A program made the translations under genes and the position numbers. Below are positions 59,434 through 64,000 of a stretch of 64,000 bases of DNA, one piece after another (within the stretch, counting starts at the first letter, position 1; each line of letters starts with the position of its first letter). The stretch covers positions 1 through 64,000 of the forward strand of contig JABHFS010000168.1 of assembly GCA_018672475.1 (NCBI GenBank), given 5' to 3'. Below the pieces are notes generated by a model that saw only the letters and a list, made by a program, of their open reading frames with translations, searched no databases and was not told where the DNA came from. The DNA is from Gemmatimonadota bacterium (GTDB taxonomy: Bacteria > Latescibacterota > UBA2968 > UBA8231).

Positions 59434-59850
59434 CTAGGGAATTCCCAACTCGCGTCGATACCCCTCATCCCCGTTGCCATGTAACTCCCTATAAGGCACG
59501 CGAATAGTCCGCATCAACTCCCCACGCGCCCCGTCGCCATCCCGCCAATGCAAAACCTTCCGCCTGGCTGAAAACCGAAGTCATCACCGAATAGTCATAG
59601 CGTCCCGTCGTGATCTCGCTTTGACCGAACAAGAACAGAGCCTGGCGATTAACGCCTCCACCGACACAATGCTCTTCGCCATCGAGACACCTGCCCCGGG
59701 TTCCGTATCAGACCGATCCGGCGTCTCGACATTAAGACAGTGATAGAGGACGGGCAGGGTAGCGCCCTCCGGAAAATCACAGCACGGTCCGCTCGCCGTC
59801 TGCAGGGGGCAGACGACCTCACCCCAGACTTACTCGGGTGGGTATGGAGT
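59434..59850 (-). pseudogene. Decayed coding remnant (family not identified)
   Basis: Protein-like segments in different minus frames: CCDFPEGATLPVLYHCLNVETPDRSDTEPGAGVSMAKSIVSVEALI / LFLFGQSEITTGRYDYSVMTSVFSQAEG / KVLHWRDGDGARGELMRTIRVPYRELHGNGDEGYRRELGIP*. Confidence 0.5.
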
Positions 59851-60001: not shown

Positions 60002-60514
60002 TCAAGAAATAGGCGGCACTTCCCGCCGCTCTTCCTGCAAAAACCACATCTCATAGATCGGCACCAGAATGCACAGCAACATCGTCAGCCCCAATAGCGC
60101 CGAATTCACCGGTGCCAACGCCCCCCAGCCTGCACCGACATAACGCACCAGCCACGGCTTGGCCACATCCAGCGCGATATAAACGAAACACGAGGAAATG
60201 ACAAAGGTCTTCCAGCGGCGGCTCCAGGCGCTGAGCAAAAAAAGATGCCCGGTCGTCAAAAAGACCATGGGCATGATGAACAAGTGAAAATGGGAAGTCT
60301 CGATCAGTTCCGCTTCTTCCTTGGGGAAACTCATCCCCTGCTCGCTGCCGCGATAATATTCCGCTGCACCCCGGGCCGAGAGTTGCGTCTTTTGGTAGGA
60401 CATGTAGATGGATAGCCCCGCCGCCGCCAGCATAAAGACCAGGAAATAGGTCATGATCAGCCGAGTATTGAAATCCATCCGCGCGAGTTGCGAACGACCG
60501 TTAAAATACCTCAT
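60002..60514 (-). CDS. Multi-pass membrane protein with His-rich TM segment
   Basis: ~4 hydrophobic segments; IETSHFHLFIMPMVFLTTGHLFLLSAW; stop/start adjacent to the FMN-binding gene. Confidence 0.75.
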   Translation of the reverse strand: MRYFNGRSQLARMDFNTRLIMTYFLVFMLAAAGLSIYMSYQKTQLSARGAAEYYRGSEQGMSFPKEEAELIETSHFHLFIMPMVFLTTGHLFLLSAWSRRWKTFVISSCFVYIALDVAKPWLVRYVGAGWGALAPVNSALLGLTMLLCILVPIYEMWFLQEERREVPPIS

Positions 60515-61152
60515 TACTGCATGACACTCTGTCGAGGTTGGTAGAAGTGTTCGGTCAATGCCAATAGTTTGCGCACCCCGAAGTTGAGCGAGCGTACGGA
60601 GAGCGTCGCCCCGGTAATATTGACGATATCGCGATTGATACGAACGGGATCCTTGAGGCTTTTACCACGGTACTGGCGCAAAAAACGCGGTTGCCGTACT
60701 TGTCCGCCGCGGCTTTCGCGATACACCAGCACCGACGCGCCCAATACCGTAAAACGCGAATCGATGCCAACCATAAAAGTGATCGGGCGAAATTTGCCGA
60801 TCTCCTCCGAGACGATCGCATAGCCCTGGAAGGCATGCCCTTTGCCATAGGCCAGATAGACTTCAAGGCTGTCGTCGGCGAAGGCGCGTCCCAAGTCGGC
60901 GGCCAGTCGTCGCTTGACCACGACGTCGAGGTGTTGCACCTCGCGCACAAACTCCACAGCATCGGGGAAGAGCTTATCTCGTCCCTCATCCGGCGTCAGG
61001 AAAACCTGGACGGAGCCGATCTCGTCGGCAACGGCGGCGCCCGTTAGGAACGCGAACGCAATAAATGAAATATATCTAATCATGATAACTCGTAGAAAGA
61101 TAACCTTATCGCTTATTTTGCAGTAGAGTTTATCGCAATAAACACCCATCAC
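60514..61152 (-). CDS. FMN-binding domain protein (RnfG/NqrC-like flavinylated domain), exported
   Basis: SFIAFAFLTGAAVADE signal; VLVYRESRGGQVRQPRFLRQYRGKSLKDPVRINRDIVNITGATLSVRSLNFGVRKLLAL: FMN_bind (S/T)GAT motif. Start probably internal (MIRYISFIAFAF). Confidence 0.85.
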   Translation of the reverse strand: MMGVYCDKLYCKISDKVIFLRVIMIRYISFIAFAFLTGAAVADEIGSVQVFLTPDEGRDKLFPDAVEFVREVQHLDVVVKRRLAADLGRAFADDSLEVYLAYGKGHAFQGYAIVSEEIGKFRPITFMVGIDSRFTVLGASVLVYRESRGGQVRQPRFLRQYRGKSLKDPVRINRDIVNITGATLSVRSLNFGVRKLLALTEHFYQPRQSVMQ

Positions 61153-61211
61153 CCCGATCGATACGCGAACAAGCCGATGGTTTTTTTCATGCGCCCCAAC
61201 TCGGTCTCGGC

Positions 61212-62318
61212 TTAAAAATAGGAAGCCACCGAAAAGATCAAGCCATTACTGTCCTCGTCCCGATCGTAGATCTCGTAATCAAGCTTCATCACGGTCTCTT
61301 CTTCTGGGCGAAAATTCAACCCGAAGGTCAAGCGCGTTTCCTCGCTTGAACCCAAATCGATACTGTCATAGCGAAACGAAGCCGTACACACCGAATTCGG
61401 AAATTGGGACAACACCCCGGGCAAAAAGTGATAAGCCGTCTGGGCATAATAGCCAGAGCGAGCATCTTCAACAGCCCCGTCAATTGAAGCACCGGCAAAC
61501 TCGCCTTTGAAATCGAACGGGCCGCGGTTATAACTGATATCGGCGGCATAGATGGCCAAGTTGTGCTCCCCTTTGTCGTCATAGGCGCCCCGGTGAAACG
61601 AGCCACCTAAGTCCAAGCCTAAAAAAGGACTGTAATTCAAACGACCGACCAGCGATTTTTCCTCGTTATTGTCGGCCTTATGGCTACCCCGCCCCGAACG
61701 GATCCGTGCGCCGGCGGCTTCGTTGAAACCATTGACCAGGTATAACTCGTAACCAAGCACAGACTCGTCGCCGGGATAGACCGTACCGAAAAACCCCATG
61801 CCCGCCTCACTTAGCGTCGTCGGCACGATCTCGCGTGCGACCAACGGTCGATTGCTAAGATCATTGAGTGGACTGTCGTGGTTGAGGTTGAATTTGCCTA
61901 AGGGCGAAAGAATGACGCCGCCGCGATAACTGAACGACTCGGCAAAGCTGATATCGAGGGTGGCGAATTCGAGTTTGATTTCCCCGTCGCTATCGCCCGA
62001 GCCCTTGAGCAAACCGCCGTGCTCAAATTCGAGTTCGGCCATCACGTGGATGCGATCGCTAACTTCACCGTGGATAAAAGGAATAAAACGATGCTGGTCA
62101 AACGTCTTCTTCTTCTTATTCCAAAATAATTCGTGATCGATATAACCGCCCAGAGAAGTTCCGCGGCCTGCCGTGCGCACATGTGGTTTGTCGGAGGGGC
62201 CATCGGCGACCGCAGGTCGCCGATCTTCTGCCGCCAACGGCAGAGCCAGTAAACCACTAAAGAACACGGCCTGCAAAGTGTTGCAGAGCAAACGATCACA
62301 GCGCAAAATAATGCTCAT
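61212..62318 (-). CDS. Outer-membrane porin-like beta-barrel protein
   Basis: Signal peptide; alternating amphipathic strands; C-terminal aromatic FSVASYF. Confidence 0.8.
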   Translation of the reverse strand: MSIILRCDRLLCNTLQAVFFSGLLALPLAAEDRRPAVADGPSDKPHVRTAGRGTSLGGYIDHELFWNKKKKTFDQHRFIPFIHGEVSDRIHVMAELEFEHGGLLKGSGDSDGEIKLEFATLDISFAESFSYRGGVILSPLGKFNLNHDSPLNDLSNRPLVAREIVPTTLSEAGMGFFGTVYPGDESVLGYELYLVNGFNEAAGARIRSGRGSHKADNNEEKSLVGRLNYSPFLGLDLGGSFHRGAYDDKGEHNLAIYAADISYNRGPFDFKGEFAGASIDGAVEDARSGYYAQTAYHFLPGVLSQFPNSVCTASFRYDSIDLGSSEETRLTFGLNFRPEEETVMKLDYEIYDRDEDSNGLIFSVASYF

Positions 62319-62370
62319 TCTTTCCCATACTCCCGGTTGGAGTTAACGGCGCACAACAAGAAGACATTAA

Positions 62371-62408
62371 GCCAATCAATTGTTTGACATATCAAACAAT
62401 TGATTGGC
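62371..62408. promoter_or_regulatory. 38-nt perfect inverted repeat (candidate metalloregulator operator)
   Basis: GCCAATCAATTGTTTGA-CATA-TCAAACAATTGATTGGC in the porin/feoA divergent intergenic region. Confidence 0.7.
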
Positions 62409-62532
62409 AATATATATTCGCAATATCTATGTGTCAACTATTTTTTGATATTTTTGTTATAACTTTTTTCGCTCTATCAGCTAATACTAAAAACACATTG
62501 ACTTAGCACTTGCACTGATTATATTTACAATG

Positions 62533-62550
62533 TGTTTGGCATGCCAAACA
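62533..62550. promoter_or_regulatory. 18-nt perfect palindrome (candidate DtxR/MntR-like operator)
   Basis: TGTTTGGCATGCCAAACA; shares the TGTTTGRCAT half with 62371-62408. Confidence 0.7.
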
Positions 62551-62621
62551 ATCTATTGGCAACCTAAACATCTATTTCCATTGCCAATCTTATTTTTCGC
62601 CTAATTAGCTGGATAAATAGC

Positions 62622-62873
62622 GTGGAACTTCGCAAAACGCCGCAGTCCGCAACGCCCAGTCTCGATTTATCGCAACTTCCCTTGAATTGCGAAGCAGTAA
62701 TCGCCTCAATAGCAGCAGCACCGCGTTTGGCTTCGCGCCTGCGCGAGCTCGGTTTTTTGCGCGGCCAGCCACTGCGCGTATTGCGCGCTGGTTCGGCGCT
62801 CATCGTGCAAATCGGCGAAACCCGCCTGGCTATCAGACGACGCGACGCCACCTCCATTCGCCTCGTCTCATAG
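62622..62873 (+). CDS. feoA: Ferrous iron transport protein A
   Basis: 83 aa: ASRLRELGFLRGQPLRVLRAGSALIVQIGETRLAIRRRDATSIRL, followed by feoB. Confidence 0.9.
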   Translation: MELRKTPQSATPSLDLSQLPLNCEAVIASIAAAPRLASRLRELGFLRGQPLRVLRAGSALIVQIGETRLAIRRRDATSIRLVS

Positions 62874-62898
62874 CGCTTTTCCCAATAGCAGGTCCGTT

Positions 62899-64000
62899 GT
62901 GCAAACGCCGTCTCGCGTGCAAACCCTGGCGCTCATCGGCAATCCTAATACCGGCAAAACGACGCTCTTCAACGCCCTGACCGGGCTTTCCCAACAGGCC
63001 GGTAATTATCCAGGCGTTACCGTCGAGCACAAAGTCGGTACCCTGACCTTGGCCACGGGTACTACCATTGAACTCGTCGACCTGCCCGGCACCTACAGTC
63101 TCGCCGCGCACTCGCCCGACGAAATGCTCGCCGTTGACGTGCTCTTGAGCCAACAGCAAGATGCCCCGCCCATCGACGGCATCCTCGCCATCGTCGACGC
63201 CAGCAACCTACGGCGCAACCTCTATCTCGTCTCCCAGCTCGCCGAAACTGATTTGCCAATGGTCATCGTGCTCAATATGACCGATATCGCACTCAAGAGG
63301 GAAATCATCATCGATGCCGAGGCCCTATCACAAAAGATCGGTGCCCCCGTCGTGCCGCTTTGTGCGCATCGACGCGAAGACCTCGACGAATTGCGCCGTG
63401 CATTGGCCGTACTCAGCAACAAAGACCCGGGCGTATCGGACGCACCCGTAGCGCATCAGCACCGGGTCACACTGCCCGATGCCCTCTTACAAGGCATTGG
63501 CGAATTACAGGCGCTGGCCACCCGTCCACTTTCCGCGGTCGAAGCCCTGCGCGCACTCGTAGACGAAGACAGCTACGCGGAAAACCGCTTCCTCGCGCAA
63601 GCACCCAAAGACGCCCCGGACAAATTAGCTATCTTGCGCGCCGCCGATCCCGAATACACCCTCTCCGAACTAGAGAGCAATGCGCGCTACACCTGGATCG
63701 ACCACCTACTCACCGACGCGCTGTCCCAACCCACCCAATCCAAGCCCAACCACTCAGACCGGGCCGATCAGATTCTCACCCACCGCTTTTTCGGCACCCT
63801 GGCTTTCTTACTGATTAACGCCCTCGTCTTCCAGGCCATCTACGCCTGGTCCGGCCCCTTGATGGATGGTGTCGACGCGCTATTCGCCGCCGTCGGCAGC
63901 AGCGTTTCGGCCCAGATCCCCCCGGGGCCGCTGCAAAGCCTAATCGTCGACGGCCTAATCGCCGGTGTCGGCGGAGTACTTATCTTCCTACCACAGATTG
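62899..64000 (+). CDS. feoB: Ferrous iron transport protein B, N-terminal part (truncated at edge)
   Basis: GTG start; LALIGNPNTGKTTLFNALTGLSQQAGNYPGVTVEHKVG, VDLPGTYSLAAHSPDE, LNMTD; not in ORF track because open at edge. Confidence 0.96.
   Translation, partial: MQTPSRVQTLALIGNPNTGKTTLFNALTGLSQQAGNYPGVTVEHKVGTLTLATGTTIELVDLPGTYSLAAHSPDEMLAVDVLLSQQQDAPPIDGILAIVDASNLRRNLYLVSQLAETDLPMVIVLNMTDIALKREIIIDAEALSQKIGAPVVPLCAHRREDLDELRRALAVLSNKDPGVSDAPVAHQHRVTLPDALLQGIGELQALATRPLSAVEALRALVDEDSYAENRFLAQAPKDAPDKLAILRAADPEYTLSELESNARYTWIDHLLTDALSQPTQSKPNHSDRADQILTHRFFGTLAFLLINALVFQAIYAWSGPLMDGVDALFAAVGSSVSAQIPPGPLQSLIVDGLIAGVGGVLIFLPQI

Follow-up and report, generated by a model that had tools for sequence, protein, structure and literature searches.

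Three genes close to the end of the window, the 64,000-nucleotide stretch analysed here, encode a porin, an exported protein with an FMN_bind domain and a small four-transmembrane (TM) protein that we call mem, and they lie divergent from the ferrous iron transport genes feoA and feoB. Our results support a model, to which we assign a probability of roughly 0.6, in which this trio forms an iron-regulated ferric reductase module that would feed FeoAB. The window is part of C101, a contig of 66,182 bases in a Candidatus Latescibacterota metagenome-assembled genome (G000, 6.6 Mb), whose nearest public relative is the isolate SZUA-1027. FeoB imports Fe(II). The minus-strand operon runs from porin to FMN_bind to mem, and the initial annotation, which had placed such a trio opposite a plus-strand feoA-feoB pair, was correct in both open reading frames and strands. 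The genes are:

60002 to 60514, minus strand: mem, a four-TM protein of 170 amino acids with no Pfam or NCBIfam family
60514 to 61083, minus strand: the FMN_bind protein (Pfam FMN_bind), with a Sec signal peptide and an [S/T]GAT motif
61212 to 62318, minus strand: the porin, 368 amino acids with a signal peptide and a predicted 16-strand general-porin-like barrel (AlphaFold, Foldseek)
62622 to 62873, plus strand: feoA (Pfam FeoA, 7e-14)
62899 to 64000, plus strand, cut by the window end and continuing to 65070 on C101: feoB, 723 amino acids (Pfam FeoB_N, 5e-56)

The mem and FMN_bind genes overlap in TAATG. By Pfam, both FeoA and FeoB domains are present at the locus, and FeoB_C was found on the same contig as FeoB_N.

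Evidence that the trio is tied to iron comes from the region between the porin gene and feoA, which holds four elements:

62371 to 62408, strandless: porin-side putative operator, an inverted repeat GCCAATCAATTGTTTGA-CATA-TCAAACAATTGATTGGC that contains TGTTTGACATATCAAACA (62381-62398), identified from sequence
62409 to 62437, minus strand: promoter-like site of the porin operon, TTGACA-17-TATATT (11/12), by consensus match only
62498 to 62525, plus strand: promoter-like site of feoA, TTGACT-16-TATATT (10/12), by consensus match only
62533 to 62550, strandless: feoA-side putative operator, the perfect 18-nucleotide palindrome TGTTTGGCATGCCAAACA, which begins 8 nucleotides past the -10 box, identified from sequence

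Two palindromes had been reported in this intergenic region, and both are present, the porin-side one as a 38-nucleotide repeat with perfect arms of 17 nucleotides. They sit within two 30-nucleotide copies that are 83% identical and 152 bp apart, each containing the 18-bp palindrome TGTTTGRYATRYCAAACA, and one palindrome lies about 7-10 nucleotides beyond each -10 box. Because this spacing is found at both ends, we interpret the region as a pair of promoters facing in opposite directions, with a separate operator at a near-equal position for each, and this interpretation replaces that of one palindromic region acting as a single shared site. A terminator-like reading of 62371-62408 was set aside, since the same 30-nucleotide block recurs at the feoA promoter. 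The sequence TTTGRYATRYCAAA is present twice without mismatch, and none of 500 shuffles of the intergenic sequence equalled either site; a search of all 6.6 Mb of the genome for TGTTTGRYATRYCAAACA at 0-1 mismatch gave these two sites and no others.

Comparison with relatives, which were searched in depth within Latescibacterota only, extends this pattern. We distinguish the window's own family (f1), a sister family (f3), a third family (f4) and remote homologues of mem (f6). Across nine f1 loci compared, the best operator site has two mismatches or fewer in seven (G000, G005, G018, G017, G012, G019 and G015) and is unconvincing in G020 and G014. In f3, PepSY_TM comes next after the porin and FMN_bind genes, and this group is unlinked to feoAB, which is itself preceded by a DtxR-family gene (L117, L142). 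When the 18-bp palindrome TGTTTTAYTARYAAAACA was sought in six f3 genomes carrying the porin-FMN operon, all six had a perfect copy ahead of that operon and five (G036, G028, G037, G034 and G032) also had one ahead of dtxR-feoA-feoB, with 0-1 other perfect sites per 5-6-Mb genome; a reversed-pattern control gave 1-7 sites per strand at two mismatches or fewer. Two f3 genomes without the porin-FMN pair, G027 and G030, have perfect sites before a second-porin operon, and their other site precedes dtxR-feoAB in G030 and, with one mismatch, feoAB in G027. In G032 and G034 the porin-FMN-PepSY operon runs on into this kind of gene set, with a second porin, an imelysin, a di-haem oxidoreductase (DHOR), a TonB receptor and a second PepSY_TM; imelysin-like proteins have been implicated in iron uptake (PMC3143127). 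At another f3 locus (L055) two ferritins lie close to the porin-FMN_bind operon, and at L053 the operon of porin, FMN_bind and PepSY_TM also includes ApbE. Finally, a single f4 locus (L063) brings together DtxR, porin, ApbE, FMN_bind, FeoA, PepSY_TM and FeoB, and G000 encodes on C126 (L129:4200-4742) an orthologue of the feoAB-linked DtxR of f3 (phmmer 1.6e-48). Taken from sequence, these observations indicate that the trio and feoAB very probably belong to one DtxR-type iron regulon. The initial annotation had proposed an iron-linked, flavin-based module with a porin, co-regulated with feoAB, and to this extent the comparisons agree with it; the ferric reduction step is carried forward as a proposal.

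Several further sites and regulators were seen in these genomes. G042 has a second perfect operator copy before an oxidoreductase-like gene (L143:327-1385), and no dtxR-feoAB was located at a perfect site there. G034 and G032 each have one further perfect site upstream of a nitroreductase-family gene (L058:5615-6181 and L059:12469-13035), which is possibly another member of the iron regulon. Another DtxR-family regulator of G000 (L128:5175-5840, on C144) has a FeoA domain at its C terminus, and its gene adjoins others that resemble those of metal ABC transporters.

The distribution of the trio suggests that it is inherited as a unit. The FMN_bind protein occurs in 12 of the 25 f1 genomes sampled, mem occurs in the same 12, and the remaining 13 have neither; FeoB was found in 57 of 64 genomes sampled across the phylum. 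The association with feoAB expected from the window was recovered in all nine f1 genomes with a contig long enough, where the trio adjoins feoAB in divergent orientation. Homologues of the trio are therefore not consistently found away from iron genes, the more so as the unlinked f3 pair shares its operator with dtxR-feoAB. On the far side of mem from feoA, the window carries one further feature:

59437 to 59653, minus strand: decayed remnant of dfy, a gene that in relatives flanks the trio, or feoA where the trio is absent

The dfy product, an exported protein of about 292 amino acids that matches no Pfam family, is intact in relatives. The arrangement dfy-mem-fmn-porin|feoA-feoB is found in G014, G017, G018 and G020, and dfy|feoA-feoB without the trio in G003, G004, G007 and G010 (genus g1), G022 and G024 (g5) and G023 (g6). 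Because the flanks of this empty site are the same with or without the trio, we conclude that the three genes are gained or lost together.

In f1, gene order around feoB is as a rule well conserved, since dfy, DprA-like, CoaD-like and Obg-like genes stay linked too, and adjacency to feoAB alone is therefore weak evidence. One explanation of the locus is accordingly that an unrelated operon came to lie next to feoAB and was retained there through this synteny, as the conserved dfy, DprA-like and CoaD-like neighbours might suggest. This explanation is largely refuted, and we regard it as very improbable, given that paired promoters carry the same operator at the trio and at feoAB, that the same operator is common to the unlinked f3 loci, that the genes are jointly arranged independently in f4 and that exactly these three genes are lost as a block.

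The open reading frame of the FMN_bind protein extends to 61152, and the likely true ATG at 61083 gives the signal peptide MIRYISFIAFAFLTGAAVA; with a Pfam score of 29.8 bits against a cut-off of 22, its description as an exported FMN_bind protein is well founded. It carries the flavinylation motif TGAT (T183, counted from the longer start at 61152), of which GAT is invariant in every relative aligned and the preceding residue is S or T in f1, f3 and f6 and is replaced in f4. A profile match to the RnfG structures 7zc6_G and 9eri_G (E ~1e-11) places the flavinylation site in register. ApbE is encoded exactly once in G000 and is present in 14 of 15 mem-positive genomes, the exception being G016, which is 73% complete. 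From these features, we infer that the FMN_bind protein is covalently flavinylated by ApbE. It resembles RnfG and NqrC in its FMN_bind domain and aligned flavinylation site but lies outside any Rnf or Nqr operon, and its signal peptide is predicted to be cleaved, where those proteins have a complex-bound anchor. The one other FMN_bind protein in G000 is NqrC itself, in an operon resembling that of the Na+-translocating NADH:quinone oxidoreductase (NQR) at C123. The only ApbE gene of G000 (L071:9616-11601, on C30) adjoins a polyprenyl synthase gene, as does the f6 FMN_bind gene (L062:1296-2806), a possible link to quinones.

An outer-membrane barrel had also been assigned to the trio, and the AlphaFold2 model of the porin (mean predicted local distance difference test score, pLDDT, 73; predicted template modelling score, pTM, 0.73) bears this out, matching 16-strand porins of the OmpU, OmpC and OprP types (Foldseek E 1e-13 to 1e-10). 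The predicted fold is that of a general-porin-like barrel and does not reveal substrate preference.

The most unusual component is mem. No Pfam or NCBIfam family was found for any of the 14 members searched, no relative in the PDB was found by profile, and the model (four TM helices; pLDDT 78, pTM 0.67) gave no significant fold match (best Foldseek PDB hit, E ~1). Relatives of mem were not found in plasmids by tblastn or in viral contigs by scan. A lack of Pfam matches rules out membership of mem in PepSY or in DUF4405. The distribution of charges weakly suggests an N-in topology. Conserved residues cluster at the predicted periplasmic start of TM2 (Y54, E66, E69, E72, H75 and H77), with H90 lower in TM2 and D116 in TM3; those kept across f1 and f6, at 20-22% identity, include Y54, E66, E69, L70, H75, K102, D116, Y125, Y154 and W157. 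The initial annotation had pointed to histidines in the TM segments of this protein. Three are indeed present and conserved in 12 of 12 f1 members (H75, H77 and H90), all on the single predicted helix TM2 and not on several helices, and of the three only H75 is kept in f6. H77 and H90 are kept in f1 only; in f6 there is instead a HAH displaced by two residues, together with an additional histidine at the TM1 end that lies on the membrane side of the TM2 pair. On this pattern, mem could plausibly bind a metal or heme close to its periplasmic face, and a homodimer could supply a bis-His heme site, by analogy with what has been proposed for FezC.

The main argument for the function of mem comes from its position. 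In f1 it occupies the slot after FMN_bind that PepSY_TM holds in f3, and no PepSY_TM was found in G000, which leads us to propose that mem is a transmembrane electron carrier. The f6 loci show a related grouping, in which mem adjoins a porin in three of three; the two loci uncut by a contig end also have FMN_bind in the operon, and one of these has ApbE. In one f3 porin-FMN operon, the PepSY_TM protein (L055:8652-9437) has a YCF48/BNR-like insert where the PepSY domain would be expected.

Together, these results suggest a model for the locus. A DtxR-type repressor loaded with Fe(II) would bind both palindromes over the divergent promoters and silence the two operons in iron-replete cells. When iron runs short, the porin, judging from its fold and position, would let small ferric complexes into the periplasm, where the FMN_bind protein, flavinylated by the single ApbE, would carry electrons. 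Taking the place held by PepSY_TM in sister lineages, mem would relay electrons from the inner membrane, probably from the quinol pool, to the flavin or to iron. Fe(III) would thus be reduced and the resulting Fe(II) imported through FeoAB. It is possible that mem binds a b-heme, perhaps where the two subunits of a homodimer meet, as was suggested for FezC. More tentatively, mem may be the founding member of a new class of electron-transfer proteins that span the membrane and serve flavinylation systems. It would have replaced PepSY_TM in a DtxR-controlled route of ferric reduction and uptake through porin, flavoprotein and FeoAB, and might be a b-type cytochrome acting as a homodimer.

Besides the high synteny around feoB, several observations weigh against this model. 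An intramembrane bis-His heme in mem, as first suggested, is weakly supported, and an intramolecular one is not indicated in f1, because the histidines lie on one helix and only H75 is shared with f6. The f6 loci with mem, porin and FMN are not beside feo genes, and the DtxR gene of G000 is not at the trio-feoAB locus. Nor is the trio needed for FeoAB, since many feoAB-bearing relatives do without these genes (13 of the 25 f1 genomes have no trio).

Two other explanations were considered. In one, the trio is iron-regulated without being a reductase for FeoAB: the porin would admit Fe(II) or small solutes, and the flavoprotein and mem would serve as an iron-sparing electron carrier when heme and Fe-S carriers are scarce. 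A survey of flavinylation suggests that, when iron is limiting, flavin-based carriers may stand in for iron-based ones (PMC8238504), the f6 relatives of the trio lie near hemA, polyprenyl synthase and a multiheme cytochrome and not near feo, and the operators argue for iron regulation and not for reductase chemistry. We nonetheless consider this explanation rather unlikely, because in f3 and f4 the genes around the porin-FMN pair encode PepSY_TM, ferritin, imelysin, TonB or Feo proteins, which points to uptake and reduction. In the other, the flavoprotein would be fed by a different membrane system, such as NQR, and mem would be a metal-binding or accessory protein that passes iron to FeoB. 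G000 does have an NQR operon with NqrC, and the cluster of Y54, E66, E69, E72, H75 and H77, with its E-x-x-H pattern, is a plausible metal site. However, mem replaces PepSY_TM directly after FMN_bind, and the extra TM1 histidine of f6, on the side of the TM2 histidines, fits heme as well, which makes this explanation improbable.

Ferric reduction with delivery to FeoAB, our preferred model, has precedents. Flavinylation-associated gene clusters with the iron transporters VIT1 and FTR1/P19 and with five classes of membrane carrier have been described, from which Fe(III) reduction for assimilation was inferred (Meheust et al. 2021, PMC8238504); the word FeoB is absent from the main text of that study. 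Its PepSY-like and MsrQ-like systems resemble the locus in having a flavinylated periplasmic protein, a transmembrane electron carrier, ApbE and a ferrous transporter nearby. They differ in that the partner in the window is FeoAB, the porin is part of the unit and mem falls outside the five classes by Pfam; PepSY_TM stands beside the FMN protein in the f3 and f4 relatives and not in G000. DUF4405/FezC cytochromes, added later, are likewise small membrane proteins tied to flavinylation and iron, and homodimerisation was suggested as the way in which FezC builds its heme sites (Huang et al. 2024, PMC11334425). In contrast, mem has no DUF4405 match in Pfam, has four predicted TM helices and in f1 carries its conserved histidines on a single helix. 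These cytochromes are characterised by four central heme-ligating histidines (two per protomer in a homodimer); mem has three on one helix in 12 of 12 f1 members, of which f6 keeps H75 alone and has another on TM1. Porins with Fur boxes that adjoin or are co-regulated with feoAB were described in Geobacter and Desulfuromonas and suggested to take part in the entry of iron (Rodionov et al. 2004, PMC545781). The available portion of that study reports Fur boxes and no FMN_bind or mem partner, whereas the window has DtxR-type palindromes. Our literature search found no paper joining a porin, FMN_bind, FeoAB and a four-TM protein, in line with the initial annotation, which pointed to no described system of exactly this composition. 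Flavinylation-linked iron assimilation is thus already known, and what is new here is the membrane component, the partnership with FeoAB and the operator layout.

In summary, the locus bears on the source of periplasmic Fe(II) for FeoB, which is often unclear in many oxic or mixed habitats. It joins to FeoAB, via a shared operator, a complete candidate chain of outer-membrane entry, covalent-flavin carrier and membrane electron donor. A membrane protein family absent from Pfam and NCBIfam thereby gains a testable function, and the link between flavinylation and iron assimilation, previously reported for VIT1 and FTR1/P19, would be extended to FeoAB.

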